Below the pieces are notes generated by a model. That model was not told where the DNA came from, ran no database searches, and worked only from the letters and a program-made list of their open reading frames with translations. Position numbers and translations under genes: made by a program. From Pyxidicoccus trucidator (lineage in GTDB: Bacteria; Myxococcota; Myxococcia; Myxococcales; Myxococcaceae), in contig NZ_JAAIXZ010000028.1 of NCBI RefSeq assembly GCF_010894435.1, positions 1 through 64,000 of the forward strand: a stretch of 64,000 nucleotides of DNA. The letters run 5' to 3'. Position 1 is the stretch's first letter, and every line of letters starts with the position of its first letter. Positions 14,586-61,734 of this stretch are shown here, one piece after another.

Positions 14586-14588
14586 GCC

Positions 14589-15524: not shown

Positions 15525-15532
15525 GTCCTCCC

Positions 15533-32664: not shown

Positions 32665-33042
32665 CTACTTCTTCAGCGGCCATTTCCCCTCGGCCTCCAG
32701 CGTGCGGCGGAGGGCGGGGTTCTCGTCCATGAAGGCGGTGAGGGACTCCTCGGTAATCTCCACCAGGATGTCCTCGCCGCCCAGCTCCGTCTGGCAGCTC
32801 AACCGGGAGTACGGGCGGACGTCGAACCCCATGTCCAGGCGGTCCGCCTCCGCGTCCGTCTGCTCGCTCAGCGAGTCGAGGCCCTTGCGCACCCAGATAT
32901 GGCAGGTGGAGCAGGCACAGACGCCGCCACAGCTGTGCCCCACCTGAGCGCCGCAGTGCTCGGCCGCGTCCAGCAGGGTGGTGCCCGTGGGCACGTCGGC
33001 GCTGACCTCGGCCAGGGGGCTCTTGAAGGTCACCTTCGGCAC
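32665..33042 (-). CDS. fdx: ISC-type 2Fe-2S ferredoxin
   Basis: 125 residues from a GTG one base after the hscA stop region. An adrenodoxin-type ferredoxin that supplies electrons for Fe-S cluster assembly. Cluster ligands are Cys38, Cys44, Cys47 and Cys83 (SCGGVCACSTC and LSCQTEL), the C-x5-C-x2-C...C spacing of Fdx. An extra Cys42 lies within the loop. Last gene of the isc operon; normal length. Confidence 0.93.
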   Translation of the reverse strand: MPKVTFKSPLAEVSADVPTGTTLLDAAEHCGAQVGHSCGGVCACSTCHIWVRKGLDSLSEQTDAEADRLDMGFDVRPYSRLSCQTELGGEDILVEITEESLTAFMDENPALRRTLEAEGKWPLKK

Positions 33043-33043
33043 G

Positions 33044-34888
33044 TCAGTACTCCTCCACGGAGTGCCCGGCCACCACCGAGGTGATGGCCTGGTTCATCAC
33101 CCGCTCGATGAAGGGCCGCGACGCCTCGTCCAGCGTGTGCACGGCCTCCTTCAGCTTCAGGTGGTCCTCGCCCTTCATCAGCTCGCGCACCCGGGCCAGG
33201 CCCGCGTCGATGGCCTCCCGCTCCCCCTCCTGGAGGAGTGAGCCGTGCTCGCGGAGCTGGCGGTCGGCCTCGGCCAGGACGCGCTCGGCGTCCACGCGCT
33301 GCTCGCGCACCTGCCGGGCCTGGATGTCGTCCTCGGCATGGTCGATGGAGTCGAGCAGCATCTGCTCGATTTCCTCATCCGTGAGGCCATGGCTCGGCTT
33401 GACGGTGATGGACTGCGCGGCGCCGGTGCTCTGCTCCTTCGCGCTGACGGAGAGGATGCCGTCCGCGTCCACACTGAAGCGGACCTCCACCCGCGCGATG
33501 CCCGCCGCCAGCGGCGGAATCCCGGAGAGGGTGAAGCGCGCCAGGCTGCGGTTGTCCTCCACCAGCTCGCGCTCGCCCTGCACCACGTGCACGTCGAGGC
33601 CCGTCTGCCCATCCTTGAAGGTGGTGAAGACCTGGGCCGCCGCCATGGGGATGGTGGAGTTGCGCGGAATGAGCTTCTCCACAATGCCGCCCATCGTCTC
33701 CAGCCCGAGCGACAGCGGAATCACGTCCAGCAGCAGCACGTCGTCCTGGCGATTCACGCTGGTGAGCAGGTTGGCCAGCACCGCCGCGCCCAGCGCCACC
33801 ACCTGGTCCGGGTCGATGTCGCCCAGCGGCTCGCGGCCAAACAGCTCCGCAACGAAGCGGCGCACCGCCGGCACGCGCGTGGCGCCGCCGACCAGGATCA
33901 CCCCGTCCAGCTCCCCGGCCGTCACGCCCGCGTCCTTCAGCGCCCGCCGGCACACCACGCCCGTCTTCTGCACGTACGGCTGAATCCAGGTCTCCATGTC
34001 CGAGCGCTTCACCGTCTGCGTGTGGCCGCCCACGGTGAGCTGCACCTCGGGCGCGTCGGTGAGCGCCTCCTTCGCCTTGCGCGAGGCCGCCAGCACCTCG
34101 GCCACCAGGGAAGGGGAGGGCTCCGCGGCGCCCATGGCCTGGAGCACCTGCTGGGCAATGGCGCGGTCGAAGTCGTCGCCCCCCAGCGCGGAGTCGCCGC
34201 CGGTGGACTTCACCTCGAAGATGCCCTCCACCAGCTTGAGGATGGAGACGTCGAAGGTGCCGCCGCCCAGGTCGTAGACGGCGAAGGTGCCCTGGCTGCC
34301 CTTGTCCAGGCCGTAGGCCAGCGCGGCGGCGGTGGGCTCGTTGAGCAGCCGCAGCACCTCCAGCCCGGCCAGCCGGCCCGCGTCCTTGGTGGCCTGCCGC
34401 TGGGCGTCGTCGAAGTAGGCGGGCACGGTGATGACCGCCTGCTCGACCTTGGTGGAGAAGTGCGCTTCCGCGCGGCGCTTGAGCGCGCGCAGCACCTCGC
34501 CGGACACCTCAATCGGCGTCACCGGGGTGCCGCCGGCCACGTCGAAGCGGACCACCTTGGCGCCGGGGACGAAGCGGTAGTGCCCCAGCTTGCGCGTCTC
34601 CGCGTCGTCCGGGCTGCGGCCCATGAAGCGCTTCACGGAGGCAATGGTGTCGGTGGGGTGCTCGGGCGCCAGGCGCCGGGCCCGCGCGCCGACCACCACG
34701 CCGCCGTCCTTCGCGTAGTGCACCACGGAGGGCAGCAGCAGCGAGTCCCCCTCGTCCACCGGGACGCAGCGGGGCGTGTCCTGGACCACCGCCGCGACGA
34801 GCGAGTTGGTGGTGCCCAGGTCGATGCCCACCGCGTAGCCCTTGGGCTTCAGCGGGTCGTGGATCTGCAGGTAGCCGTTCTTGCTCAC
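33044..34888 (-). CDS. hscA: Fe-S cluster assembly chaperone HscA (Hsp70 family)
   Basis: 614 residues from a GTG that overlaps the hscB stop (GTGA). Nucleotide-binding domain with [14 protein letters not shown] (~residues 20-33), [20 protein letters not shown] and [15 protein letters not shown]; substrate-binding domain with [15 protein letters not shown] and [15 protein letters not shown], then the helical lid. HscA binds the LPPVK loop of IscU and with HscB drives cluster transfer. The length is that of HscA rather than DnaK (no acidic tail). Operon: iscS-iscU-iscA-hscB-hscA-fdx. Confidence 0.94.
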
Positions 34889-35442
34889 GACAGACTCTCC
34901 TCCTCGAACGCGTCCACCTGCTCGAGGAAGCGCGTGAAGTAGCGCACCCGCCCCAGCGCGTGCGATGCCTTTTTCACCAACGCCTCCCCGTTCGCTCCCG
35001 CCCCCCCGCCCTCCAGGGTGCGCAGGATGCCGGCCGCCTCGGCGAGCGCCACCATGCGCCGGGCCTCCACGTCGGTGGCCATGACCCGGGCGCGCGCGAG
35101 GTCCTTCTTCGCCATGGCGCCATCCAGCGCCTCGCGCAGCTCCATGACCTCCTCCAGGAACTCCAGCGGCATGTCCTTCTGGGCGCCCGCGTCCTCGCGG
35201 TCCAGGTCGATGCCGTGCAGCTTGAGGAGGTAGAAGGCGCGGCGCACCGGGTCCTTCAGCGTCTTGAAGGCCTCGTTGAGCGCGGTGGTGCCCTCCAGTG
35301 CCTTGAGGCGCTCGCGAGCGTCGGCCTGCGCCACCCGGTCCGGGTGGAGCCGCAGCGACTGCTCGCGGTACTGCTTCTCCAGCGCCGGCACGTCCACGTC
35401 ATAGGCGCGCGGCAGCCCGAAGACGTCGAAGTGGGTCCTCAC
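34885..35442 (-). CDS. hscB: Co-chaperone HscB (J-domain protein)
   Basis: 185 residues from a GTG at 35442, which has GGAG eight bases before it and starts the family N-terminus [15 protein letters not shown]. The J domain contains HPD at residues 33-35 (RLHPDRVAQ). The C-terminal helical bundle binds IscU. It stimulates HscA ATPase during cluster transfer. It lies after an intrinsic terminator hairpin that separates it from iscA, so its level may be lower than that of iscSUA. Confidence 0.93.
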
Positions 35443-35474
35443 AGGGGGCTCTCCAAAGGGGTGACAAACGAAAA

Positions 35475-35497
35475 GGGCCCGGCGGCTGGCCGGGCCC
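35475..35497 (-). terminator. Intrinsic terminator inside the isc operon, after iscA
   Basis: A perfect 9-bp stem GGGCCCGGC/GCCGGGCCC (35475-35483, 35489-35497), followed on the minus strand by TTTTCGTTTG. It lies 48 bases after the iscA stop and 33 before the hscB start. Confidence 0.75.
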
Positions 35498-35545
35498 ATG
35501 TGTCGGTGGCCCCGCCCGGGAAGGGGCGGAGCACCGGAGGCCGCT

Positions 35546-35950
35546 TCAGACGGAGAAGCTCTCTCCGCAGCCGCAGGCGGCCTTCACGTTGGGGTTCTCC
35601 AGCTTGAAGCCGGAGGCCATCAGCGTCTGCTCGAACACCAGCGTGGTGCCGATGAGGTACAGGTAGCTCTTCGGGTCCACGAAGACGCGCACGCCGTCCT
35701 TCTCGAAAATCTTGTCGCGCTCGCGGGACTTCTCGGACCACTCCATGGAGTACTGGAGGCCCGAGCAGCCGCCGCCCTTCACGGCCAGCCGCAGGCCCGC
35801 CTCGGGCGTCTGGCGCTGCTCCAGCAGCTCCTTCAGCCGGCCCACCGCGCTGTCCGCGATGACAATGCCCTTCGGGGGGGCGGGCTTCGCCGCGGGCGCG
35901 GTGGCAGGCGGCTGGCTCTGCATCGTCTCCTGGGTCGCCTGCTCACTCAT
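35546..35950 (-). CDS. iscA: IscA/HesB-type Fe-S assembly protein
   Basis: 134 residues. A-type carrier that passes clusters or iron to target proteins. The three invariant cysteines are Cys62 (GGGCSGLQY), Cys126 and Cys128 (AACGCGESF). The first ~27 residues are an Ala/Pro/Gln-rich extension not usual in IscA (typical length ~107). It follows iscU by 24 bases, and a terminator follows the gene. Confidence 0.93.
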   Translation of the reverse strand: MSEQATQETMQSQPPATAPAAKPAPPKGIVIADSAVGRLKELLEQRQTPEAGLRLAVKGGGCSGLQYSMEWSEKSRERDKIFEKDGVRVFVDPKSYLYLIGTTLVFEQTLMASGFKLENPNVKAACGCGESFSV

Positions 35951-35974
35951 GGTTGCCTCTCCCGTCCCGCCGCG

Positions 35975-36376
35975 TCAGGACGCCTTGGCCTGGCGCGCGG
36001 CGCGCTTCTTCTTGAAGTCCTCGATGGCCGCCTTGATGGCGTCCTCGGCCAGCACGGAGCAGTGGATCTTCACCGGCGGCAGGGACAGCTCGCGGGCCAC
36101 GTCCTTGTTGGAGATGGTCATCGCCTCGTCCACCGTCTTGCCCTTCACCCACTCGGTGACGAGCGAGGAGGAGGCGATGGCCGAGCCACAGCCGAAGGTC
36201 TTGAAGCGGGCATCTTCGATGCGCCCGTCCTCGGTGATCTTCAGCTGCAGGCGCATCACGTCGCCGCAGGCGGGGGCGCCCACCAGACCGGTCCCCACGT
36301 TCGGGTCTTCCTTGTCCATCGTCCCGACGTTACGGGGGTTCTCGTAGTGGTCGATGACCTTGTCGCTGTAAGCCAT
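35975..36376 (-). CDS. iscU: Fe-S cluster scaffold protein IscU
   Basis: 133 residues; the ATG at 36376 follows AAGGAG by six bases. The scaffold on which IscS-derived sulfur and iron form 2Fe-2S clusters. Ligands Cys37, Asp39, Cys63 and Cys106 are present (PACGDV, FGCGSAIASS, KIHCSV), and the chaperone-binding loop LPPVK is at residues 99-103. Normal length. Located 128 bases after iscS. Confidence 0.95.
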   Translation of the reverse strand: MAYSDKVIDHYENPRNVGTMDKEDPNVGTGLVGAPACGDVMRLQLKITEDGRIEDARFKTFGCGSAIASSSLVTEWVKGKTVDEAMTISNKDVARELSLPPVKIHCSVLAEDAIKAAIEDFKKKRAARQAKAS

Positions 36377-36504
36377 ATCGACTCCTTCAACGGATGCTTC
36401 GCACCAAAGGTTCCGGAGGGCAATGCCCCCCATCCGAGGGGCCATGCGCTCCGCTGTATGCCAGGAAAGACGGGCTAATGCGCCGTTCACTCGGATGGGC
36501 GGCG

Positions 36505-37869
36505 CTAGTGCGCCGTCCACTCAATCGACTTCAGGTCGATGCCTTCCTTGGCCATCTCGTAGAGCGGGCTCATCTCCCGCAGCTTGCGGACCTTGCCCAC
36601 GACCAGCTCTACCACGTAATCGACTTCCTCTTCCGTGGTGAAGCGGCCCAGGCCGAAGCGGATGGAGCTGTGCGCCAGCTCCTCGTCCACGCCCAGCGCC
36701 CGGAGCACGTAGGACGGCTCCAGCGAGGCGGACGTGCAGGCGGAGCCCGAGGACACGGCCACGTCCTTGATGCCCATCATCAGGGACTCACCCTCGGCGT
36801 GGGCGAAGGAGATGTTGAGGTTGCCCGGCAGCCGGTGCTCCATGGAGCCGTTGATGACCGTCATGTCCAGCGCGTCCGTCAGCCCCTTCCGGAGCTTCTC
36901 GCGCAGCCGGAGGATGCGGGCGGACTCCTCGGGCAGCTCCTTGCGGGCGAACTCCGCCGCCGCGCCGAAGCCGACGATGGCCGCCACGTTCAGCGTGCCG
37001 GAGCGCATGCCGCGCTCGTGGCCGCCGCCGTCGATGATGGGGGCGATGCGCACGCGCGGCTTGCGGCGCACGTAGAGGGCGCCGACGCCCTTGGGGCCGT
37101 ACATCTTGTGCGCGGTGATGGACGCGAGGTCCACCTTCATGGCCTCCACGTCGAAGGGCACCTTGCCGATGCCCTGCACCGCGTCGCAGTGGAAGAGCAC
37201 GCTCTTGGAGCGGCACAGGGCGCCAATCTCCGCGACGGGCTGCACGGTGCCAATCTCGTTGTTGGCGAACATGATGGAGACCAGCACCGTCTTCGGCGTC
37301 ATCGCCGCGGCCAGCTTCTCCAGGCTCACCCGGCCGTCCTGCTCCACGTCCAGGTAGGTGACGCGCGCGCCGCCGGTGGGCAGCTCCGCCCACTTCTTGT
37401 AGGTGGCGTCGTTCTCCACGTCGAACTTCGCGGCCAGCTCGGCGAGGTTGTCCTCGGTGACGTCCTGCTCGGCCAATTGCGCCAGGCGCAGCGCCTTCAG
37501 CTCGTCCAGGCGCTCCTGGCGGATGCGCTCCAGGCGCTTGCAGGTGTCCAGGACGGCCTTGTGCTCCGTCTTGAGGGTGATGATGTGGTCACCCTTGGAC
37601 TTGTAGAACTCGATGACGCCCTTGATGGCCAGGTTGTCGGACTCGGTGGCGCCGGAGGTGAAGACGATTTCCTGCTCGGACGCGCCGATGAGCTCGGCCA
37701 CCTGCTGGCGGGCCTTCTTCACCGCTGCCTCGGCCTTCCAGCCGAACACGTGGTTGCGGCTGGCCGCGTTGCCGAAGTCCTCGCGCAGGTAGGGCAGCAT
37801 GACCTCCAGCACCCGCGGGTCCAGCGGCGTGGTGGCGTGGTAGTCCATGTAGATCGGCAGCTTCACCAT
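36505..37869 (-). CDS. iscS: Cysteine desulfurase IscS with an inserted helical segment
   Basis: 454 residues; the ATG at 37869 gives the family N-terminus [22 protein letters not shown] four codons earlier is possible. Removes sulfur from cysteine for Fe-S and other sulfur pathways. PLP Lys is K255 ([11 protein letters not shown]), and the active Cys is C378 ([14 protein letters not shown]). It is about 50 residues longer than E. coli IscS (404) because of a charged insertion at ~116-167 (after [16 protein letters not shown], before [12 protein letters not shown]). First gene of the isc operon; no iscR upstream, but a promoter with an inverted repeat is present. Confidence 0.94.
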
Positions 37870-51682: not shown

Positions 51683-53290
51683 ATGGGGCCCCTGTTCGCC
51701 TACAGCCTCGTGCCCGTCCTGTCCGTGGCGCTGCTGCTGTGCTTCACCGCCGCGCTCCGGGGTCGCAATGCCCGGGGCCTGGCGCTCTACTGCCTGGCCA
51801 CCGCCCTGTGGAGCGGCGCGCTGCTGCTGCTCTGCATCCCCCGCCTGGCCTGGGTGGGCGAGCGCTTCGTCACCATTGGCGCCTTCATCTCCGCCACCTA
51901 CCTGCATGCCGCCTATGACGTGACGCGCCAGCGCTCCTACCGGCTGGTGGCGCTGGCCTACGCGGTGGCGGTGGCGGTGATGAGCCTGGGCGTCTTCGTC
52001 CCCAGCATCCTCTATGGCCCGGTGGCGCTGGGGCGCGGGCCGCTGTTCTGGCCGTCCATGCTGCTGGCGGTGGCCGCCGCCGCCGTGCCCCTGGTGCACC
52101 TGGCGCGCTCGTACCGGCACGAGGCCCCCGAGCGCCGACCCATCCTTCGCAGCCTGGGCATCGCGGGCGTGCTGGCGTACTCGGGCACCATCGGCAACGC
52201 CCTGCTGCTGTCGTCCGGCTACGCGCTGCCCTTCGGCATGTACCTCGTGCTGGCCGCGCTGCTGGTGCTGGTGCACGTCATCAACGCGCACCAGGCGCCC
52301 GGGGACAGGCGGCTGCTGGAGCGCAGCCTCGTCTACTCGGCCATGGCCGCGGTGCTGTCCGCGGGCTTCCTCTTCGGCGTGCTGACGCTGATGGCGGGCA
52401 GCGGCCAGCCCTTCCTCGCCGAGTACCGCGCGGGCGCCTTCTTCCTGCTGGCCCTGGCGGCGCTCGCCTTCGAGCCGGTGCGCCAGGGACTCCAGGAGTG
52501 GCTGGGCCGCCGGCTGCTCAAGGGCCGCGCCAGCGGCAGCGAGCTGGCCGCCGCGCTCGCCGCCCAGGAGGCCCGCGCGGACCAGGCGGCGCGGCTGGCC
52601 GAGCTGGGCCAGTTCACCGCTGCGGTAGCCCACGAGGTGCGCAACCCGCTGGGCGTGCTCGCCGCGCACCTCAAGCTGCTGGAGCGCCGGGGTGGAGACC
52701 CGGAGTCGGTGGCCGCCATGCGCGAGCAGATTGAGCGGGCCAGCCACTTCGTCGACGAGCTGCTCCGCTACGGCCGCCCGCGGCCATTGGACCTTCGTCG
52801 TGTAGACATTCCCGCCACCCTCGCGCTGTCCTACTCCACCGCACGTCAGGGGTTGGGTGCGCTCGCACCGGAGGTCTCGTTCGAGCCGCCGGAAAGCGAG
52901 TCATTGGAAGTCGAGGCGGACCAGGCACAGCTCTCACAGGTGTTTGTCATTCTTATCGAGAATTCCCTGCTCGCGCTGAGAGATGTGACAACCCCCCGGC
53001 TACGGGTGCGCTGTGAGCGGGCGGAGCGCACGCTCCGGGTCCGCGTGGAAGACAGCGGGCCCGGCATTCCCCCGGAGCTGCTGCCACGGCTGTTTCAGCC
53101 CTTCGTGACGGGCCGCAAGCGGGAGGGGCCCCGGCCGGGCACGGGCCTGGGGCTGGCGATTGCTCGCGGCATCCTCGAACGTCATGGAGGAAACATTCGC
53201 GCGGGCCGCTCGGAAGCGCTCGGCGGAGCCCTCTTCGAGCTGGAAATGCCTTTCACCCAGCCGGTTTCCATTGCCGCCGCAGTCTCCTGA
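51683..53290 (+). CDS. Membrane sensor histidine kinase
   Basis: 535 residues. Seven or eight membrane helices (~1-275) form a 7TM-type sensor region, followed by a short linker and a HisKA/HATPase core: H box TAAVAHEVRNPLGVL (His ~324), N box LIENSLLAL, G1 EDSGPGIPPEL, F box RLFQPFVTG and G2 GTGLGLAIARGI. Autophosphorylates on His in response to a membrane or extracellular signal. No response regulator gene is adjacent, so it is an orphan kinase, common in myxobacteria. The ATG at 51683 begins the first membrane helix. Confidence 0.9.
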   Translation: MGPLFAYSLVPVLSVALLLCFTAALRGRNARGLALYCLATALWSGALLLLCIPRLAWVGERFVTIGAFISATYLHAAYDVTRQRSYRLVALAYAVAVAVMSLGVFVPSILYGPVALGRGPLFWPSMLLAVAAAAVPLVHLARSYRHEAPERRPILRSLGIAGVLAYSGTIGNALLLSSGYALPFGMYLVLAALLVLVHVINAHQAPGDRRLLERSLVYSAMAAVLSAGFLFGVLTLMAGSGQPFLAEYRAGAFFLLALAALAFEPVRQGLQEWLGRRLLKGRASGSELAAALAAQEARADQAARLAELGQFTAAVAHEVRNPLGVLAAHLKLLERRGGDPESVAAMREQIERASHFVDELLRYGRPRPLDLRRVDIPATLALSYSTARQGLGALAPEVSFEPPESESLEVEADQAQLSQVFVILIENSLLALRDVTTPRLRVRCERAERTLRVRVEDSGPGIPPELLPRLFQPFVTGRKREGPRPGTGLGLAIARGILERHGGNIRAGRSEALGGALFELEMPFTQPVSIAAAVS

Positions 53291-53354: not shown

Positions 53355-54023
53355 ATGACTACGACAGGAGTACGGGGGGAGCGCTGGTTTCAAGATAAGA
53401 AACCAGACCCGCCGCGTCTGTTGGTTGAAACGGAGGGGGCCGTGAGAGCGAATAGAAGGCTGTGGGTGGTGAAGTCTCCAGCCGGGGGTGGGTTCGAGGC
53501 TTTCGCTTGGCGCGTGCAACCCACCTTGTTCTCTGTGCTGGGCAGGTATTGCGGCGGGATGGAGCACGACCTCGAGGACCTGGTGCATGATGTGTTGCTC
53601 CGGGCCCTGCTGCGTTGGTCGGAGGTGAAGCACCTGGACGAGGATGCGCAGCGGGCGTGGACGGGGCGGGTGGCCCACAACTGCTTCATGGACAGGTGCC
53701 GCCGGAAGGGAAGCGAGTCCAACCGGTTGGCGGCGCTGCTGCACCTCCACGAGCAATTCGAGCAGCCCCATGAGACGTGGGAGCCGGAGCTGTGGGAGTT
53801 CGTCGGCCCGGACGACCTGCTCCAGGCCATCGACAAGCTCAGCAGCCCGAAGCTGCGCCGGACGTTCGAGCTGTACCTGCAAGGCCACTCGTACGCGGAG
53901 ATTGGCCGGGACACGGGGGAGAAGCCCGGCACGGTGGGCGCGCGGCTGAGCCGTGCACGCCGCGAGCTGCGAGTGCTGCTGAAGGAGCCCGCGGAGCAGC
54001 GGAGGCAGGAGCGGAAACGATGA
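53355..54023 (+). CDS. ECF-type RNA polymerase sigma factor, module 1
   Basis: 222 residues. Sigma region 2 (~45-115: LEDLVHDVLLRALLRWSEV, WTGRVAHNCFMDRCRRKG) and region 4 (~150-205: KLRRTFELYLQGHSYAEIGR, GTVGARLSRARREL). About 40 N-terminal residues are not part of the fold, so the true start may be a later GTG. Its stop overlaps the ATG of the CHAT protein (ATGA), whose N-terminus is a zinc-finger anti-sigma-like domain, so the two are produced together. It is paralogous to the sigma factor at 57454. Confidence 0.88.
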   Translation: MTTTGVRGERWFQDKKPDPPRLLVETEGAVRANRRLWVVKSPAGGGFEAFAWRVQPTLFSVLGRYCGGMEHDLEDLVHDVLLRALLRWSEVKHLDEDAQRAWTGRVAHNCFMDRCRRKGSESNRLAALLHLHEQFEQPHETWEPELWEFVGPDDLLQAIDKLSSPKLRRTFELYLQGHSYAEIGRDTGEKPGTVGARLSRARRELRVLLKEPAEQRRQERKR

Positions 54024-57000
54024 CGATGGACTGGTGCAACGAGCTGCCTCGCTTCCTGGATGGGGAGATGCCCTCCGAGGAGCAGGTGCTCTTCCGTGAG
54101 CACCTGGCGGGCTGTGAGCCGTGCGCCCTGGAGTTCCGCGACACGCTGCAACTGGAGCTGCTGGGGCAGACGACGGTGGAGGAGGGCCCGCTGCGCGCGT
54201 CCCCGGAGGCCCGCGCGCAGCAGGCCCCGCGCAGGCGGTGGTGGAAGGACTGGCGGGTGTGGCTGTCCGGGAGCGGGGCGCTGGCGGTGGGGCTGGTGGC
54301 GCTGCTGCTGCTCCCCTGGCCGCGGCAGGGCGACGCGGAAGAGGTGACCTGGCTGGTCCCCGAGGAGGGCCGGCACCTGGAGGCGCGGCTGACGTACGGC
54401 GTGGTGGACCGGAACCACCGGCGCTACGTGCCGGACCGGAGCGAGTCCGACGGGGCGCCCCGCGTGACGGCGCTGCCCCTGCACGCGCTGTCGCGACTGG
54501 AGGCCCGGAAGGACTTCCATGGCATCGCCACCGCGTACCTGCTGCATGGCGCGCCCTGGCAGGCCCGGGCCTTCCTGCAGCGGATGCCGCCCTCGGCGGA
54601 CCGCTCCTGTGATCTGGCGGTGATTGCGCTGGAGCGGGCCCGCGACGTCGAGCCCGCGAAGGCCGATGGCACCCAGCTGAAGCAGACCTACCTGGATGAG
54701 GCGCTGGAGCTGCTGGAGGCCGTGCTGCGCGAGGCGCCGGCGCATCCGCAGGCGCTGTGGAACCGGGCGCTGGTGCTGAGGGAGATGGGGCTGACGCTGC
54801 TGGCGGCGGAGGCGTTCGAGGCGGTGGCGAAGCAGGGGGAGCCGGGCTGGAGCGAGGAGGCCTGGGGGCAGGCGCGGACGCTGCGCGACGCCACGCAGGC
54901 GCGCGGCCGCGAGTGGACGGAGACCTACGCCGCGACGCGGGACTTGATGACGGACCTGGGCGCGCGGCTGCCGCTGGCGGAGGCCCGCGTGCACCCGGGC
55001 ATCGTCCGGCTGGCCTTCTACGACGCGGTGCGGGCGGCGCCCACGCGTGAGGACGTGCTGCGGCTGGCGCCGCTGGCGGAGGCGCTGGACCGCGAGTACG
55101 CGGGCAAGGTCCTGTCCGACTACGTGCGGCGCGTGGCTGCGCGGGACTTCACCCGCCGGGAGCCTGCTGCGCGGCGCTATGTGCAGGTGGCCCGGGAGGA
55201 AGTACCCGTCGACGCGGCGCTGCTGGAGGCGCTCCGGCGCTCGGGCGAGGAGGACATCTATTTCGGGGCGCTCGTGTTCGCGAGCGTCGCGAGGCGCACG
55301 GTGGACATGGAGGCGCTGGCTCGGCTGGCCGAGGCGCAGGGGGACCCGTGGCTGCAGCTCGTGGCCGAGCGTGAGTGGGCCGCGAGCGAGGCACGGGAGG
55401 GGCGGTGGTGGAACGCGGAGCAGCGGCTGAAGTCGGCCCTGGACACCTGCCAGGGCACGGCGCTCGTCTTCAGCTGCCTGCGCCTGGAGCGCGAGCTCAC
55501 GGAGCTGTACCTGGAGCAACACCGCCCGGCGGAGGCCCTCCCGCATGCGTGGAGCGGCTGGAACCGGGCGAAGGCGGCGCGCGAATGGCGCTCCGAGCAG
55601 GGCTTCCTCCTGCAGCTGGCGGACATCGCCCGCTACCAGCACGCCTTCGCCAGCGCGCGCGCGTACCTGGAGGAGTCGCTGGCGCGGATGCCGGAGGACT
55701 GCGTGCAGCGCACGCACATCCACCGGAACCTGGCCGCGGTGGAGTGGGAGGGCTTCCGCCCGGATAGCGCCCGCCGCGCGCTGGACCGCGCCATGGCGTG
55801 TGAGCAGCCCCTGGGGCTGACCGGGGCCTTCGTGCTGTCGGACCTGGCGCGCTCCCGGTCCGAGCCCCGGGATGGGGACCACCTGCGTCGCGCGCTGGCC
55901 GAGCTGCGCCTCGCGGGCGTCTCGCCCGGCCGCGAGGCGCTGCTGCTCTTCATCGAGGGACAGTTCGAGCTGGCCCGCTCCCGTTCCGCGGGCAGTGTGC
56001 TGCTGTGGAGCGCCATCGATCTGGCGGAGCGGCGGCCGGACGACGTGGATGCGCGCAAGGCCCGGGCCTATGCCTACGGTGCCCTCATCGCCGAGGCGGC
56101 GAGGGCGGGGAACTGGTCCGACGCGCTCGCACTCCAGGGGCGCGAGCTCCGGATGGAGCTGGTGCCGGAGCGGTGCATGCTGGCGGTGTCCGTGCACCAC
56201 GAGCGCACGGTGGTCCTCGCCCGGGGGCCTGGTGGCAAGCTGCAGGGGCAGCATGGCGACTCGCGCACCGAGCCGCTGCGGGGGGCGGACGGGCTGGTGC
56301 CGCCGCACCTGGTGGCGGAGCTGCGCGGCTGCGAGCACGTGGACGTGCTGGCGCTGCCGCCCGTGCACGGCCTCACCGGCCTGCTGCCCGTGGACCTGGC
56401 CTGGAGCTACCGCGTGGGCCGTCGCGCGGCGCCGCGGGCGGCCCCGGCGCAGACGCCCGCGCGCCACCTCGTGGTGACGGGCGTGACGGGCCCCGCGTCG
56501 CTGAGGCTGCCGCCGCTCGAGGTGCTGCAGCCGCCCCGGGTACCGGACCCGTGGCGCACGGAGCTGCGGGGCAGCCAGGCCACGCCGTCGAGCGTGCTGG
56601 CGGCCATGGCGGACGCCAGCGAGGTGGAGGTGCACGCGCACGGGATGTTCAGCTCCGCGGTGTCGGACGCCTCGCTGGTGGTGCTGTCGCCGGACCTGGA
56701 CGGCCGCTACGCGCTCACCGCGGACCGGGTGCGGAAGGCCCGGCTTTCACGCGCGCCGGTGGTGTTGCTGGCCACGTGTAGCGCCGCGCGGACGGCGCCC
56801 TACCTGCACGAGCCCTTCAGCCTGCCGGTGGCCTTCATCGAGGCAGGGGCGAGCGTGGTGCTGGCCTCCACGACGGACATTCCCGACACGGCGGGCGAGT
56901 TCTTCGAGGAGGTGCGGGAGCTCATCCGCGGCAAGGCGCGGCCCTCGGTGGCGCTGAGGGATGCCCGTGCGCGCTGGCTGAAGGAGCACCCGGGCAACTC

Positions 57001-57034
57001 GCGCTGGCTCGCCCACGTCCTCCTGTTCGAGTGA
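54020..57034 (+). CDS. Zinc-finger anti-sigma / transmembrane / CHAT protease fusion, module 1
   Basis: 1004 residues. N-terminal anti-sigma zinc finger (Cys6, His28, Cys32, Cys35: FREHLAGCEPC), a single membrane helix (~79-98), a large helical-repeat (TPR-like) region from ~150 to 710 and a C-terminal CHAT caspase-like domain (~730-1004). Catalytic dyad visible: His in VEVHAHG (872-875) and Cys920 in VVLLATCSAAR. The CHAT part should be on the outer (periplasmic) side if the zinc finger is cytoplasmic. Translationally coupled to an ECF sigma factor. Two similar copies lie in tandem. Likely a protease that controls the sigma factor or a partner protein; not demonstrated. Confidence 0.85.
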   Translation: MTMDWCNELPRFLDGEMPSEEQVLFREHLAGCEPCALEFRDTLQLELLGQTTVEEGPLRASPEARAQQAPRRRWWKDWRVWLSGSGALAVGLVALLLLPWPRQGDAEEVTWLVPEEGRHLEARLTYGVVDRNHRRYVPDRSESDGAPRVTALPLHALSRLEARKDFHGIATAYLLHGAPWQARAFLQRMPPSADRSCDLAVIALERARDVEPAKADGTQLKQTYLDEALELLEAVLREAPAHPQALWNRALVLREMGLTLLAAEAFEAVAKQGEPGWSEEAWGQARTLRDATQARGREWTETYAATRDLMTDLGARLPLAEARVHPGIVRLAFYDAVRAAPTREDVLRLAPLAEALDREYAGKVLSDYVRRVAARDFTRREPAARRYVQVAREEVPVDAALLEALRRSGEEDIYFGALVFASVARRTVDMEALARLAEAQGDPWLQLVAEREWAASEAREGRWWNAEQRLKSALDTCQGTALVFSCLRLERELTELYLEQHRPAEALPHAWSGWNRAKAAREWRSEQGFLLQLADIARYQHAFASARAYLEESLARMPEDCVQRTHIHRNLAAVEWEGFRPDSARRALDRAMACEQPLGLTGAFVLSDLARSRSEPRDGDHLRRALAELRLAGVSPGREALLLFIEGQFELARSRSAGSVLLWSAIDLAERRPDDVDARKARAYAYGALIAEAARAGNWSDALALQGRELRMELVPERCMLAVSVHHERTVVLARGPGGKLQGQHGDSRTEPLRGADGLVPPHLVAELRGCEHVDVLALPPVHGLTGLLPVDLAWSYRVGRRAAPRAAPAQTPARHLVVTGVTGPASLRLPPLEVLQPPRVPDPWRTELRGSQATPSSVLAAMADASEVEVHAHGMFSSAVSDASLVVLSPDLDGRYALTADRVRKARLSRAPVVLLATCSAARTAPYLHEPFSLPVAFIEAGASVVLASTTDIPDTAGEFFEEVRELIRGKARPSVALRDARARWLKEHPGNSRWLAHVLLFE

Positions 57035-57043
57035 GCGCGCGGG

Positions 57044-57076
57044 GCGGGCAGGTTCCTCGTAAGGAACCCCACCCGC
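57044..57076 (+). terminator. Hairpin after the module 1 CHAT gene
   Basis: GCGGG (57044-57048) and GGTTCCT (57051-57057) pair with AGGAACC (57062-57068) and CCCGC (57072-57076) around a four-base loop. No T tract, so the small peptide gene downstream may still be transcribed by read-through. Confidence 0.4.
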
Positions 57077-57146
57077 TGCGTTGTCAGGGCAGGCGCGGGG
57101 CGTCGTCATCACGGCGGGCCACCGTGGCCGAGAGGGGGAACGTGAG

Positions 57147-57305
57147 ATGCTGAGCTGCCAACCTGACAAGACGCCGGACAGGCCCGAGGTGAGGGACCCT
57201 CCGCCGAAGGAGCCCACCGGCCTGTGCCCGCAGCCCCCCGAGTCCAAGGAGGGCCGCGCCAGGCCCGAGGTGAGGGACCCTCCGCCGAAGGAGCCCACCG
57301 GCTGA
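57147..57305 (+). CDS. Small proline-rich peptide with an internal repeat, module 1
   Basis: 52 residues; the ATG at 57147 follows AGGGGG by nine bases (a GTG at 57143 is out of frame). The peptide is MLSCQPDKTPD, then RPEVRDPPPKEPTG, a short linker LCPQPPESKEGRA, and RPEVRDPPPKEPTG again. Its DNA holds two exact 43-base copies. No signal peptide or fold is expected. It sits 113 bases after the CHAT gene, as does a comparable peptide after the second CHAT gene, so it may be a protease substrate or messenger. This role is inference; short length limits certainty that it is a gene. Confidence 0.6.
   Translation: MLSCQPDKTPDRPEVRDPPPKEPTGLCPQPPESKEGRARPEVRDPPPKEPTG
57179..57302 (+). repeat. Two exact 43-base direct repeats
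   Basis: 57179-57221 and 57260-57302 are identical over 43 bases; the period is 81 bases (27 codons), so the repeat keeps the reading frame of the small peptide gene. Only two copies; not a CRISPR array. Confidence 0.9.
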
Positions 57306-57322
57306 CGCCCGCACCGGCCACG

Positions 57323-57346
57323 GCCCCGCCGGAAGTCGGGCGGGGC
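57323..57346 (+). terminator. Hairpin after the module 1 peptide gene
   Basis: GCCCCGCC (57323-57330) and GGCGGGGC (57339-57346) form a perfect 8-bp stem with an eight-base loop, 18 bases after the peptide stop; no T tract. Further on, GGAACC at 57371 followed by TCGGTTT resembles an ECF -35/-10 pair, which would suit autoregulation of the next sigma gene (weak evidence). Confidence 0.5.
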
Positions 57347-57453
57347 TGTCGGTCAGAGGGCGGAACCCCGCGTGGCTGCGTCGGTTTCCGGACGACCCCC
57401 CAAGGATTCACCCTGAGCGCGTTCTGACCAGGCGTGAAGGAGGGCGGGGGTCG

Positions 57454-58059
57454 ATGAGGGTCCAGCGCATTGCCACAGTGGTCCAATGGCCAGTGGCCTA
57501 CAGTGAGAATGTGAGTCACGACGGCTTCGAGGAGTTCGCGCGCCGTGTCCGCCCCATGCTGCTGGCCCTGGCGAGGCGTATGTGCGGCCATGGCGGGGTG
57601 GACCCGGAGGACCTGGTCCAGGAGGCGCTCACGCGCGCGCTGTCGTACCACGGCGCGCTTGTCGCCCAGCCGGAGCCCGTGTACCGGGCGTGGCTGTGCC
57701 GGGCCCTCACCAACCACTTCCTCGACCTGTGTCGCAAGCGCCGCTCGGAGCTGCTGGAACATGAGCGCGGCGACCTGCGCCTGGTGCGCGGCGAGGTGGA
57801 AGCGCCGGACGCGCGCACGGGCGAGGCCTGGGAGCACATCTCCGACAAGGACTTCCTGGCCGCCATCGCCCGGCTCTCCAACCCGCGCGTTCGCGAGGCG
57901 TACGAGCTGCACGCCACCGGCCTGCGCTACCGCGCCATCGCCCAGCGCATGGGCGTACCCGAGGGCACGGTGGGGAGCTGGCTCTTCCAGGCGCGCAAGG
58001 AACTGAAGGCGCTGTTGCTGCCGCTGACCGGTGGTGATGGTGGAGGGGATGTGGAATGA
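57454..58059 (+). CDS. ECF-type RNA polymerase sigma factor, module 2
   Basis: 201 residues; the ATG follows GGAGGGCGGGGG. Sigma region 2 (~25-90: VDPEDLVQEALTRALSYHG, WLCRALTNHFLDLCRKRR) and region 4 (~135-190: NPRVREAYELHATGLRYRAI, EGTVGSWLFQARKELKAL). Its stop overlaps the ATG of the second CHAT protein (ATGA). Paralogous to the sigma factor at 53355 with the same gene order, so the module was duplicated as a unit. Confidence 0.9.
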   Translation: MRVQRIATVVQWPVAYSENVSHDGFEEFARRVRPMLLALARRMCGHGGVDPEDLVQEALTRALSYHGALVAQPEPVYRAWLCRALTNHFLDLCRKRRSELLEHERGDLRLVRGEVEAPDARTGEAWEHISDKDFLAAIARLSNPRVREAYELHATGLRYRAIAQRMGVPEGTVGSWLFQARKELKALLLPLTGGDGGGDVE

Positions 58060-61028
58060 GCCCCCATTGCAACAGGCTGTATCTCTTCCTGGACGGCGAG
58101 CTGGGCCCGGTGGACGAGGAGAACTTCCGCCACCACCTCGCGCGCTGCGAGCCGTGCGCCACCGGGCTGCATGAGGCGCTGCAGCTCGAGCTGCTCGGCC
58201 TGTATGCGCTGGGCGATGGGCAGGTGGCCGCGAAGGCCGCGGACGTGGGCGCGCCGGTGGACCTCGCGCAAGCGCGGGAGCGCCGCTGGCGACTGCCGCG
58301 AGGGCGCTGGCCCGTGGTCGCGGCGCTGGCCCTGGCGGCGGGGCTGGCCGCGCTCGTCGTCTTCATCCCCGCGTCGCGCGAGGCGCCTCGCGCGGTCTGG
58401 CTCGCCCAGGCGTCCACGCGGCAGCTGGAGGCGCGGGTGGCGTACGGCCGAGCGGACATGCACCGCCCCTACACGCCCATGCGCGGCGGCACCGTGACGC
58501 CCTCCTCCGCGTCGCCGCTGCCACTGCGGGAGCTGGCGGACCTGGAGGACCAGGGAGACCTGCACGGCATCGCCGCCGCGTACCTCGTCCGCGGGGACCT
58601 GCGGCAGGCCTCGGAGTTCCTGGGGCGCGCGCCGCCGTCGCCGGACCGGGACTGCGACCTGGCGGTGGTTGCGCTGGAGGAGGGCCGCCATGAGGAGGCG
58701 CTCGCGCTGCTGGAGGGCGTCCTGCGCCAGGTGCCCGAGCATCCGCAGGCGCTGTGGAATCGGGCGCTGGTGCTGAGGGACATGGGGCTGACGCTGCTGG
58801 CGGCGGAGGCGTTCGAGGCGGTGGCGAAGCAGGGGGAGCCGGGCTGGAGCGAGGAGGCAGGCATTCGCGCCCGGGCGCTCCGGCAGGGCACGCAGGCGCG
58901 CGGGCGGGCCTGGAAGGCGGCCCTCGCGGCGGTGCGCGACTTGATGGTGGACGCGAAGGCGCGGCTCCCGCTGGAGGAGGCGCGGCGGTATCCGGGCATC
59001 GTCCGGCTGGCCTTCTACGACGCGGTGCGGGCGGCGGGCTCGCGCGACGCGGCGCTGCGCCTGCTGCCGCTGGCCGAGGTGCTGGACGGTGTGCAGGGCG
59101 GCGACGTGCTGCGCGGCTACGTGCGGCGGGTGGCGGAGCGGGACTTCAGCCGCCGGGCGCCGCTGGCTCGGGACTATGCGCGGCTGGTTCGCGGCGAGCT
59201 GGCCTCGCCCGCGGACTTCGTGGAGACGCTGAGGCGCTCGGGGGAGGACGACCTGTACCTGGGGGCGCGCGTGCTCGTGCCGTCGGCGGACGCCTCCCGC
59301 CAGCGGGAGGCCTTCACCGGGCTGGCCCGCGAGGAGCAGGACCCGTGGCTGGCGCTGGTGGCCGAGCGCGAGCTGGCCAACCTCGAGGAGCACGAGGGCC
59401 AGTGGTGGAAGGCGGAGGCGCGGCTGCGGGCCGCGCTGGCGGCGTGCCAGGGCCCGGGGCTGGCCTTCCGCTGCGCCACGCTGAGGAAGCGGCTGGCGGA
59501 CCTGTACCTTGCCCTCAACCGTCCGGCGGACGCCTTCGAGCAGGCGTGGAGCGGCTGGCAGGCGTCGCGCGAGCTGGGTGAGTGGGAGCTGGAGCAGCAG
59601 TTCCTCCAGGAGCTGGCGCACATCGCCCGCTACCGGCTGGATGTCTCCGGCGCGCGCGCCTACCTGCGCGAGTCGCTGGCGCGTACTCCAGAGGTCTGCG
59701 AGCAGCGGACGTACGTCCACCGCAACCTCGCGTACCTGTCCCTGCTGGACTTCGACCCGAAGGGCGCCCGGCACGAGCTGGAGCTGGCGCTGGGGTGTGG
59801 CCGTCCGCTGGGGCTGCCCGGGGCGCTGGTGCTGTCCTACCTGGCGCGCTTCGGCTCGGACGCGCAGGACGCGGACCTGCTGCGCCGCACCCTGTCCGAG
59901 CTGCGCCGGGGCCAGCCGACGCCGGGCGAGCTGGCGCAGCTGGCCTTCGCAGAGGGCCAGTTCTCCCTGGGGCAGGACCCCACCGCCGGTCGCGAGCTGC
60001 TGCATGGCGCGATTCGACAGGCGGAGGCGCTGCCCGATGACGTGGACGCCCGGAAGACGCGGATGGGCGCGTACAACGTGCTGGTGAGTGACGCGGGCCG
60101 TGGCGGCGATGCGGGCCAGGTGCTGGCGCTGACGGGCGCCGCGCTCCGCGTGGAGGTGCCCGGCCGGTGCGTGCTGGCGGTGGCGGTGGACTACGAGCGC
60201 TCGGTGGTGGCCGCGCGCGGACGGGGCGGCGAGCTGCTGGGGCACTTCGACGCGGGCCGCACCGCGCCGCTGGACCGGGACGCGTCCGGGCTGGTGCCCG
60301 CGCGGGTGCTGGCGGCGCTGCGCGGCTGTGAGCACGTGGACGTGCTGGCCCTGCCGCCCGTGCACGGCCTCACCGGCCTGCTGCCCGCGGACCTGGCCTG
60401 GAGCTATCGCGTGGGCCGCTCGGGGGGCGCACCGTCAGCGGTCCGCCGCACCGGGGGGACGCACCTGGTCGTCACCGGCGTGGAGGGGCCCGCCTCGCTG
60501 GGGCTGCCCCGCCTGGGCCCGCTGGAGCCCCCGACGGTGCCAGACCCGCAGCGGGTGGAGCTGAGCGGGCCCCGGGCCACGCCCTCGCGCGTGCTGGAGG
60601 CCATGGCGGCCGCCAGCGAGGTGGAGCTCCACGCGCACGGCGCCTTCAGCCCGGAGCTGTCGGACGCCTCGCTGGTGGTGCTGTCGCCGGAGGCTGACGG
60701 CCGCTACGCGCTCTCCGCCGCCCATGTACGGACCGTCCGGCTGGAGGGCGCGCCGCTGGTGCTGCTGGCCACGTGCGGCGCCGCGCGGGCCACGCCCTTC
60801 CTGCACGAGTCCTTCAGCCTGCCGGTGGCCTTCATCGAGGCCGGCGCGTCCACCGTGCTCGCCTCCACCGTGGACATCCCGGACTCGGCCGGACGCTTCT
60901 TCGAGGCGGTGCGCGAGCGCATCCGCGCGGGCGTGGTGCCGTCCATCGCGCTGCGGGACGCGCGGCGCCAGTGGCTGGCCGCGGACCCCGGCGCGGCCTG
61001 GGTCCAGGCCGTGCTGCTCTTCGAGTAA
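58056..61028 (+). CDS. Zinc-finger anti-sigma / transmembrane / CHAT protease fusion, module 2
   Basis: 990 residues, same plan as the protein at 54020: zinc finger (Cys5, His27, Cys31, Cys34: FRHHLARCEPC), membrane helix ~86-104, helical repeat region ~150-700 and C-terminal CHAT domain. Catalytic residues: His in VELHAHG (859-862) and Cys907 in LVLLATCGAAR. Stretches such as LLAAEAFEAVAKQGEPGW are identical in both proteins. The zinc finger probably holds the sigma factor at the membrane, and cleavage by the CHAT domain could release it. The activating signal may be read by the repeat region. Function inferred. Confidence 0.86.
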   Translation: MSPHCNRLYLFLDGELGPVDEENFRHHLARCEPCATGLHEALQLELLGLYALGDGQVAAKAADVGAPVDLAQARERRWRLPRGRWPVVAALALAAGLAALVVFIPASREAPRAVWLAQASTRQLEARVAYGRADMHRPYTPMRGGTVTPSSASPLPLRELADLEDQGDLHGIAAAYLVRGDLRQASEFLGRAPPSPDRDCDLAVVALEEGRHEEALALLEGVLRQVPEHPQALWNRALVLRDMGLTLLAAEAFEAVAKQGEPGWSEEAGIRARALRQGTQARGRAWKAALAAVRDLMVDAKARLPLEEARRYPGIVRLAFYDAVRAAGSRDAALRLLPLAEVLDGVQGGDVLRGYVRRVAERDFSRRAPLARDYARLVRGELASPADFVETLRRSGEDDLYLGARVLVPSADASRQREAFTGLAREEQDPWLALVAERELANLEEHEGQWWKAEARLRAALAACQGPGLAFRCATLRKRLADLYLALNRPADAFEQAWSGWQASRELGEWELEQQFLQELAHIARYRLDVSGARAYLRESLARTPEVCEQRTYVHRNLAYLSLLDFDPKGARHELELALGCGRPLGLPGALVLSYLARFGSDAQDADLLRRTLSELRRGQPTPGELAQLAFAEGQFSLGQDPTAGRELLHGAIRQAEALPDDVDARKTRMGAYNVLVSDAGRGGDAGQVLALTGAALRVEVPGRCVLAVAVDYERSVVAARGRGGELLGHFDAGRTAPLDRDASGLVPARVLAALRGCEHVDVLALPPVHGLTGLLPADLAWSYRVGRSGGAPSAVRRTGGTHLVVTGVEGPASLGLPRLGPLEPPTVPDPQRVELSGPRATPSRVLEAMAAASEVELHAHGAFSPELSDASLVVLSPEADGRYALSAAHVRTVRLEGAPLVLLATCGAARATPFLHESFSLPVAFIEAGASTVLASTVDIPDSAGRFFEAVRERIRAGVVPSIALRDARRQWLAADPGAAWVQAVLLFE

Positions 61029-61123
61029 CAAGAAATCCAACCGCCCACGTCTTACCGGTGCGGTTGCACGGTGCCGGCGCGTGGCCGGACCGTGGATGGC
61101 CCATGCAAGAGGAGGGGGACGCC

Positions 61124-61306
61124 ATGGCGAAAGACGTTTCGAGGCTGGATGGACAAGAGGGACCGGTGGAGGGCATCAACCCCAAGGACCCGCCCCCGGA
61201 AATCACCAAGGGGCTCGCGGCCGACCGGCCCTACTCCGCCAGGATGTCCGTGCCGACCTCCCTCGTCGCCGTGGAGGCGCCGGAGGGAGACGAGGACGGC
61301 CGGTAG
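61124..61306 (+). CDS. Small peptide of the CHAT module 2
   Basis: 60 residues; the ATG follows a very strong site (GAGGAGGGGG). The sequence starts MAKDVSRLDGQEGPVEGI, then NPKDPPPEITKGLAADRPY and an Ala/Val-rich end. It shares a DPPP core and small size with the peptide at 57147 and lies in the same place, 95 bases after the CHAT gene. No signal peptide. An intrinsic terminator follows 47 bases after the stop, so it is the last gene of the module. Confidence 0.72.
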   Translation: MAKDVSRLDGQEGPVEGINPKDPPPEITKGLAADRPYSARMSVPTSLVAVEAPEGDEDGR

Positions 61307-61353: not shown

Positions 61354-61395
61354 TTCGGGGCATCTCCCTCCAGGGAGGTGCCCCGAAACTTTTTT
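61354..61395 (+). terminator. Strong intrinsic terminator closing CHAT module 2
   Basis: TTCGGGGCA/TGCCCCGAA (61354-61362, 61379-61387), enclosing CTCCCT/AGGGAG, followed by ACTTTTTT. The best-formed terminator in this part of the window. Confidence 0.9.
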
Positions 61396-61491: not shown

Positions 61492-61734
61492 ATGTTTCGT
61501 TGTGACGCGCGCAGTCATGGAGAGTCCAGCGGAATGTGGGCGCCCGAGGACGGGCGTGGGGCCTTGGGGGGCCCCTGGGCGGCGAGGGCGCTGGTGGCGG
61601 AGGGGAATGCGGCGCGCGTGCTTCAGGAGAAGTCGGGGTTCGAGCTGTTGTCCGGGGGGGACGACGAGGACCTGGGGGGGCTGGAAGTCGAGTTGTTCTA
61701 CGAGGACGACCTGGAGTTGATCGCCAGCTACTGA
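61492..61734 (+). CDS. Small acidic protein, unknown
   Basis: 80 residues; the ATG follows AGGGGGGAGTG. The C-terminal half is strongly acidic (SGGDDEDLGGLEVELFYEDD) and the N-terminus is Gly/Arg/Ser-rich (FRCDARSHGESSG). No signal or membrane segment. It is separated from the CHAT module by the terminator at 61354, so it has its own promoter. It could belong to the same system or be independent. Not recognised. The following 61735-62013 (279 bases) shows nothing clear beyond the next gene's ribosome binding site. Confidence 0.6.
   Translation: MFRCDARSHGESSGMWAPEDGRGALGGPWAARALVAEGNAARVLQEKSGFELLSGGDDEDLGGLEVELFYEDDLELIASY

Follow-up and report, generated by a model that had tools for sequence, protein, structure and literature searches.

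Two tandem DdvA-like transmembrane anti-sigma factors with CHAT domains, each paired with an ECF sigma factor, in Pyxidicoccus trucidator

We analyzed the first 64,000 nucleotides of contig NZ_JAAIXZ010000028.1 of Pyxidicoccus trucidator (assembly GCF_010894435.1), referred to here as the window, in which two consecutive modules each join a gene for an extracytoplasmic function (ECF) sigma factor to a gene for a large anti-sigma factor with a CHAT domain (Table 1). The sequence bears this architecture out, and DdvA of Myxococcus xanthus already represents its kind. Each couple is almost certainly a sigma/anti-sigma pair of the DdvA kind, and the two modules are probably tandem transmembrane sigma switches resembling DdvS-DdvA. 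The fused, split, and CHAT-less forms found among their relatives are new variants around this known kind of switch, and two mini-proteins, as candidate ligands, substrates, or inhibitors, may be new partners of module 2.

Table 1. Features of the two modules and their positions in the window.
Feature	Position	Strand	Remarks
ECF sigma factor 1, 222 aa	53355..54023	+	Pfam Sigma70_r2/r4_2; true start possibly further 3'
DdvA-like anti-sigma 1, 1004 aa	54020..57034	+	zinc finger, transmembrane helix, TPR, CHAT; His874, Cys920
Mini-protein 1, 52 aa, RPEVRDPPPKEPTG twice	57147..57305	+	conserved coding; appears to be part of module 2
ECF sigma factor 2, 201 aa	57454..58059	+	Pfam; in-frame N-terminus aligns with L060 and L066
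DdvA-like anti-sigma 2, 990 aa	58056..61028	+	zinc finger, transmembrane helix, TPR, CHAT
Zinc-finger anti-sigma head of anti-sigma 2	58056..58205	+	Cys5, His27, Cys31, Cys34; Pfam, ligand conservation
Single transmembrane helix of anti-sigma 2, residues 86–102	58311..58361	+	hydropathy; low-confidence model
TPR-like helical body of anti-sigma 2	58524..60146	+	predicted model, fold match
CHAT domain of anti-sigma 2	60153..61025	+	His861 codon 60636–60638, Cys907 codon 60774–60776
Mini-protein 2, 60 aa, with GINPKDPPPEITKG	61124..61306	+	conserved coding
Terminator-like hairpin, 15 pairs then T-run, 3' of mini-protein 2	61354..61387	+	terminator scan

In both pairs, the large gene begins within the stop codon of the sigma gene through an ATGA overlap. 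The two sigma factors exceed the Pfam cut-offs for Sigma70_r2 and Sigma70_r4_2, and the large proteins exceed that for zf-HC2, with 33.1 bits in anti-sigma 1 and 31.5 bits in anti-sigma 2. The CHAT domain was above its cut-off in both proteins when the genome was searched in six frames (45.7 and 54.3 bits, respectively). Because hmmscan matched CHAT in anti-sigma 2 only (52.4 bits) and missed it in anti-sigma 1, we based the CHAT assignment on the six-frame search together with the alignment and the fold. The HAHG and ATCxAAR motifs are present in both large proteins, and all Pfam TPR matches remained below the cut-off. A preliminary description of this DNA had proposed two such pairs with overlapping stop and start codons, the large proteins having a zinc finger, one membrane helix, a TPR-like body, and a CHAT domain with intact His and Cys, so that a sensor-like body, a protease-like domain, and an anti-sigma head would be fused in one membrane protein. 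This picture stands, the helix being a low-confidence prediction and the TPR-like body being helical in the model and matched to the DdvA fold, though below the Pfam cut-off.

The hairpin downstream of mini-protein 2 is the strongest of three terminator-like sites in the region, where shuffled sequences give an expectation of 1.6, and the same scan found no terminator between modules 1 and 2. The region as originally delimited ended at 61306, which is the stop codon of the mini-protein 2 gene, although the preliminary description named neither mini-protein gene nor the hairpin. Despite conserved blocks, the aligned upstream regions contained no convincing shared ECF promoter; a sigma-70 promoter scan of the region gave no match, nor did PADLOC on four window proteins.

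The head of DdvA binds and inhibits the sigma factor DdvS. When the sequences of the PDB were searched with anti-sigma 2, two distinct sequences were obtained: 8rot/8rw5 (991 aa; E 1.1e-142, over residues 3–990) and 8rlz, a chain of 90 aa named 'Antisigma factor DdvA' (E 1.9e-5). The predicted model of anti-sigma 2, built from 52 sequences with a predicted local distance difference test (pLDDT) value of 86.9 and a predicted template modeling score (pTM) of 0.82, has a helical body followed by an alpha/beta domain. Its best fold match is 8rot, titled 'Cryo-EM structure of the transmembrane anti-sigma factor DdvA' (Z 46.1, root-mean-square deviation 3.5, 868 residues, 38% identity). The next match after the DdvA entries is the TPR-CHAT protein of Craspase, at Z 20.5 and below; lower rows hold separase (up to Z 17.9), gingipain RgpB (16.6), and SAVED-CHAT (16.2), and Rap/NprR proteins appear at Z 14–15, values that are common among helical repeats. 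The entries 8rot, 8rw5, and 8rlz are reportedly those of Bernal-Bernal et al. (2024).

According to an excerpt of PMC4374960, DdvS is active upon the inactivation of its anti-sigma factor DdvA, with the signal unknown in 2015, and an excerpt of PMC12288465 places a CBASS (cyclic oligonucleotide-based antiphage signaling system)-CRISPR island under the control of DdvS. Such passages of the DdvA literature contain no statement on the role of its CHAT domain. The DdvA locus was recognized by a 100% match to a fragment of 464 residues, which occurred in only one (G135) of the 27 genomes of the genus. There, the genes for the sigma factor and DdvA are followed by one for a protein of 105 aa, one for a relative of a C25-like peptidase, and then CD-NTase-like and Cmr-like genes, the last two labels being given by sequence appearance. 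The C-terminal DdvA fragment has 10 matches (matches rather than genes) in the genome of the window, the highest number among the 27 (range 3–10).

How widespread is this kind of protein? A contig scan with one peptide pattern, of which the best 80 matches were kept and which misses members lacking the pattern (DdvA included), yielded at least 74 loci (designated by L and a number), nearly all of them in Myxococcaceae; the outliers are one in Archangiaceae and three in metagenome-assembled genomes, one of Kofleriaceae and two of Deltaproteobacteria. Two loci, L117 and L118, are titled Comamonas sp. KCTC 72670 but cluster with Myxococcus in the tree, and the record title looks wrong. In a survey of 195 genomes of the phylum, with at most four candidates scored per genome in most cases, some match at E 0.001 was present in 151, mostly weak beyond Myxococcaceae, and matches below E 1e-100 occurred in 66 of 96 genomes of Myxococcaceae vs. 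1 of 99 others. The genome of the window holds ten family members: six fused ones (the two window modules, L042, L044, L045, and L046), three CHAT proteins without a finger (L040, L043, and L041:8239-10998), and one CHAT-less anti-sigma factor (L041:4806-6215).

Among 116 family open reading frames (ORFs), 43 encode both finger and CHAT, 35 a finger without CHAT, and 38 CHAT without a finger. All 43 fused genes, and 70 of the 78 finger genes overall, are immediately preceded by an ECF sigma gene; of the other eight, seven are the second gene of a module-2 relative, and one is an ORF at a contig edge. On the other hand, none of the 29 informative finger-less CHAT genes (30 non-edge genes minus the fragment L125; eight contig-edge genes left out) has an ECF sigma gene upstream. 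As every fused relative has an ECF sigma gene upstream, the pairing of sigma and anti-sigma is not due to chance; the co-occurrence of ECF-CHAT pairs in other genomes, which the preliminary description had offered as a check, was thus found.

The separation of finger and CHAT follows a pattern. In 19 split loci, a finger-less CHAT gene lies ~1.2–2.0 kb from a pair of sigma and CHAT-less anti-sigma genes, the CHAT gene being at a contig edge in four of them (L087, L089, L128, and L129). In a tree made by a quick method with a midpoint root, from which 8 of the 116 ORFs were omitted because the body was short or absent, the split parts form one clade each (18 rows, support 100; 19 rows, support 99). 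The model of a split CHAT-less anti-sigma factor (pLDDT 72.6) has DdvA as its best fold match, with a TM-score of 0.35. Because the CHAT-less groups nest within the tree, given its midpoint root, CHAT appears to have been lost rather than gained; within the module-2 clade, the two groups without CHAT are set apart by branches with support values of 93 and 83, which were not starred.

The residues expected of a working zinc finger and protease are strongly conserved. The His-Cys dyad characteristic of clan CD cysteine peptidases, at the positions of His861 and Cys907, is intact in all 79 CHAT domains examined (43/43 fused and 36/36 finger-less, the fragments L125 and L129 omitted). His27, Cys31, and Cys34 are kept in 78 of 78 finger-bearing relatives, and position 5 is Cys or His in 73 of them. 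The mean pairwise identity of the 43 fused members is highest in the CHAT core (0.57), followed by the finger (0.48) and the TPR body (0.46). Judged by this conservation, CHAT is more probably catalytically active than inert.

Residues 86–102 of anti-sigma 2 are strongly hydrophobic, but their pLDDT in the model is only 46–52. In the fused proteins, the helix is clear (lowest mean hydropathy 1.61). The segment preceding the helix carries more positive residues than the segment following it in 42/43 fused and 33/34 CHAT-less proteins. Because the finger must be cytoplasmic if it is to bind the sigma factor, there is a single helix, and the charge bias lies before it, the predicted topology is one in which the TPR-CHAT part should be periplasmic, on the opposite face from the finger. 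The lipoprotein-like genes that follow many relatives, with a lipobox in 13/13, 5/7, and 4/7 members of three families, fit a periplasmic CHAT. CHAT could not then reach the finger, so that either cleavage at site 2 or signaling by a change of conformation would still be needed, and CHAT could at most replace the site-1 step.

Module 2 stands out through the mini-protein genes on its flanks. Among the window, L060, and L066, the ratio of nonsynonymous to synonymous substitution rates (dN/dS) is 0.24–0.61 for mini-protein 1, 0.41–0.43 for mini-protein 2, and 0.21–0.35 for sigma 2. Other mini-protein groups gave 0.26–0.63, and two of four Corallococcus-type comparisons gave 0.88 and 1.06, with no evidence of constraint. 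Of the 90 genes that immediately follow family genes, 24 encode the motif D[KR]?PPP, vs. 2 of 588 other genes in the loci (family and sigma genes excluded), though the mini-protein clusters are defined by similarity, so that the motif within them is not independent and partly reflects shared ancestry. A separate lipoprotein family, in which five of seven members carry a laxer form of the motif, is independent evidence of it. Most mini-protein 1 orthologues can also be read from M-x-S/N-C, with a conserved Cys near the N-terminus, and one mini-protein cluster has a lipobox-like string in two of its three members, without a hydrophobic stretch.

In four genomes, picked because the survey showed their two matches apart, the modules are separated. 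There, mini-protein 1 immediately precedes sigma 2, and mini-protein 2 immediately follows anti-sigma 2; after anti-sigma 1, no DPPP-type ORF occurs within ~700 bp. In all 11 loci whose anti-sigma 2 has CHAT, module 2 has a DPPP ORF on each side, and in 7 of 7 CHAT-less relatives, it has one on neither side. The latter amount to about two independent losses, and the 11 loci, of which L126 has a downstream flank of 147 bp, are not a survey; among random 760-bp stretches, 26 of 2851 hold such an ORF. Three Corallococcus loci of the sister clade have the mini-gene on the downstream side only. The gene caller was a home-made codon-usage score that may miss small genes, and two mini-genes were recovered by a direct scan. 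In split loci, a conserved proline-rich ORF of 52–71 aa (16 members, e.g., L073:9820-10020) lies directly upstream of the sigma gene, and none of the 16 has a hydrophobic N-terminus.

Could the CHAT domain itself take part in setting the sigma factor free? By analogy with DdvS-DdvA, the finger would hold the ECF sigma factor at the inner membrane face. The TPR-CHAT part, periplasmic by its predicted topology and dimeric if DdvA-like, would sense a signal or a partner protein. Upon that signal, the CHAT dyad might cut the stalk of the anti-sigma factor, either of its own chain or of the dimer partner, or else a small protein associated with it, after which an M50 site-2 protease would free the sigma factor. 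We regard a contribution of CHAT to sigma release as a tentative proposal, somewhat short of an even chance. Module 2 would form its own set of mini-protein 1, sigma 2, anti-sigma 2, and mini-protein 2, with the DPPP mini-proteins as likely partners of the TPR-CHAT part. It is improbable, though conceivable, that they are dedicated ligands or substrates of TPR-CHAT, which would make module 2 a peptide-gated protease switch, its self-encoded proline-motif peptide holding the CHAT enzyme off or on and in this way governing the release of the sigma factor, and have the split loci do the same in trans.

Several observations weigh against reading the modules as switches of the DdvS-DdvA kind worked in this way. 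No gene for CBASS or a Cas nuclease was seen in the 10 of 15 flanking genes that were scanned, unlike the surroundings of DdvA; one of the scanned genes matches a WYL regulator. None of 19 mini-proteins in five clusters has a hydrophobic N-terminus, which fits a partner of a periplasmic CHAT poorly. The charge bias is weak in the 30 finger-less proteins (14 higher, 13 equal, and 3 lower), and among the CHAT-less and the finger-less proteins there are some without a clear hydrophobic stretch, the lowest maxima being 0.16 and 0.02. In the tree, part of the module-2 clade is without CHAT, and as the domain is missing from such conserved relatives, it is not indispensable to this type of anti-sigma factor. 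Finally, in 24 non-redundant pairs of the 43 fused ones, the divergence of the sigma factor correlates with that of the finger (r 0.86) barely more than with that of the body (r 0.84), which indicates co-inheritance and not contact; the mirror-tree correlation was therefore dropped as evidence that sigma and finger touch.

A protease whose target is something other than the anti-sigma factor, such as an envelope protein, a lipoprotein, or a mini-protein, with ordinary site-1 and site-2 proteases freeing the sigma factor, would account for part of these observations. The finger, the helix, and part of the TPR body exist without CHAT in the module-2 clade and in the 19 split-locus anti-sigma factors; all 43 fused genes are followed within 400 bp by a co-directional gene, mostly for a lipoprotein or mini-protein; and M50 peptidases are available as site-2 candidates, with nine matches in the genome that fall into about six genes. 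We nevertheless consider this explanation unlikely, though the strongest of the alternatives, as the fusion in one chain, and the adjoining genes where the parts are split, suggest that CHAT and the anti-sigma factor share one pathway. CHAT could instead be a non-catalytic sensor or scaffold that signals by a conformational change through the dimer. TPR proteins commonly act through binding, and the title of DdvA entry 8rw5 indicates a dimer; an invariant dyad within the best conserved part of the protein, however, makes this reading improbable.

The preliminary description had gone further and proposed that proteolysis within the one protein would release the sigma factor without separate site-1 and site-2 proteases. 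A protease-like domain and an anti-sigma head do share one polypeptide, but with a single helix between them, CHAT and finger should lie on opposite faces, and a periplasmic cut would leave the finger anchored; under the predicted topology, this part of the proposal is not supported in the form given, and a self-contained switch appears very improbable. Ten members in one genome might also suggest that the modules are leftovers of duplication that no longer serve any function, a notion that we find hardly credible given that the frames are open, the catalytic and zinc residues do not vary, and both modules have orthologues across Myxococcus and Pyxidicoccus. The preferred reading thus remains that of two tandem switches of the DdvS-DdvA kind. 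Its main interest lies in the mini-proteins and in the natural split and CHAT-less forms: the relatives are natural experiments that offer one switch in fused, split, and CHAT-less versions, with conserved mini-proteins that are present or absent together with CHAT. With them, the part that a membrane caspase-like domain plays in the control of bacterial transcription can be tested directly.

Among the neighboring genes, one for a histidine kinase (HisKA, HATPase_c; 51683–53290) ends 64 bp before sigma 1, and at each of the 8 + 4 module-1 loci compared, a gene of that kinase's cluster stands ahead of module 1. Between module 2 and an M24 peptidase gene lies a conserved 66-aa ORF (61534–61734; MWAPEDGRG...DDLELIASY), with a similar-looking ORF at the same place in Corallococcus. 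The closest relatives of DdvA among the loci, L046 and L045 of the same genome together with L112 and L132, adjoin genes of a Peptidase_C25 cluster and of a CHAT-nSTAND1-TPR cluster, giving several caspase-fold proteases per island; the members tested at L046 matched C25 (E 6e-9) and PADLOC SAVED_CHAT (E 7e-35). In split and finger-less loci, genes belonging to one 45-member cluster (e.g., L088:12714-13721) adjoin the finger-less CHAT genes; a single member was tested and proved to be a Cupin_8/JmjC-like hydroxylase. Elsewhere in the window, 13257–17598 and 32665–37869 appear, from protein starts only, to be mevalonate-pathway and iron-sulfur-assembly clusters.

How do these modules compare with known systems? 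In Rap-Phr and other RRNPP systems, an exported pro-peptide is encoded beside its receptor. We rejected membership in that group, as the mini-proteins are without export signals. Craspase (Csx29 TPR-CHAT, Csx30, and CASP-sigma), as described in part of PMC10028731, shares the TPR-CHAT fold (Z up to 20.5) and ties TPR-CHAT to an ECF-like sigma factor via its inhibitor. Its protease, inhibitor, and sigma factor are separate and RNA-triggered, whereas here the protease-like domain and the inhibitor are one membrane protein; there was no evidence of RNA control of the window modules, the likeness being one of fold, with Cas7-11 and Csx30 not searched for. ECF54, in the account excerpted from PMC8999054, likewise has an ECF sigma factor adjoining CHAT but is proposed to act without an anti-sigma factor. 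The modules carry a zinc-finger anti-sigma factor fused to CHAT and thus do not belong to that group. With RseA/DegS/RseP, again in the partial account of PMC10028731, they share a membrane anti-sigma factor with a periplasmic part but differ in its built-in protease-like domain. The likeness to DdvS-DdvA extends from the sigma gene just upstream of the anti-sigma gene to the zinc-finger head, the one transmembrane helix (predicted in the window), the TPR-CHAT body, and the homology from end to end, and the His-Gly and Cys motifs are seen in the visible part of the DdvA alignment. On the other hand, the identity to DdvA is ~38%, the window holds a tandem pair, and DPPP mini-proteins stand where DdvA has a 105-aa protein and a relative of a C25-peptidase-like protein.

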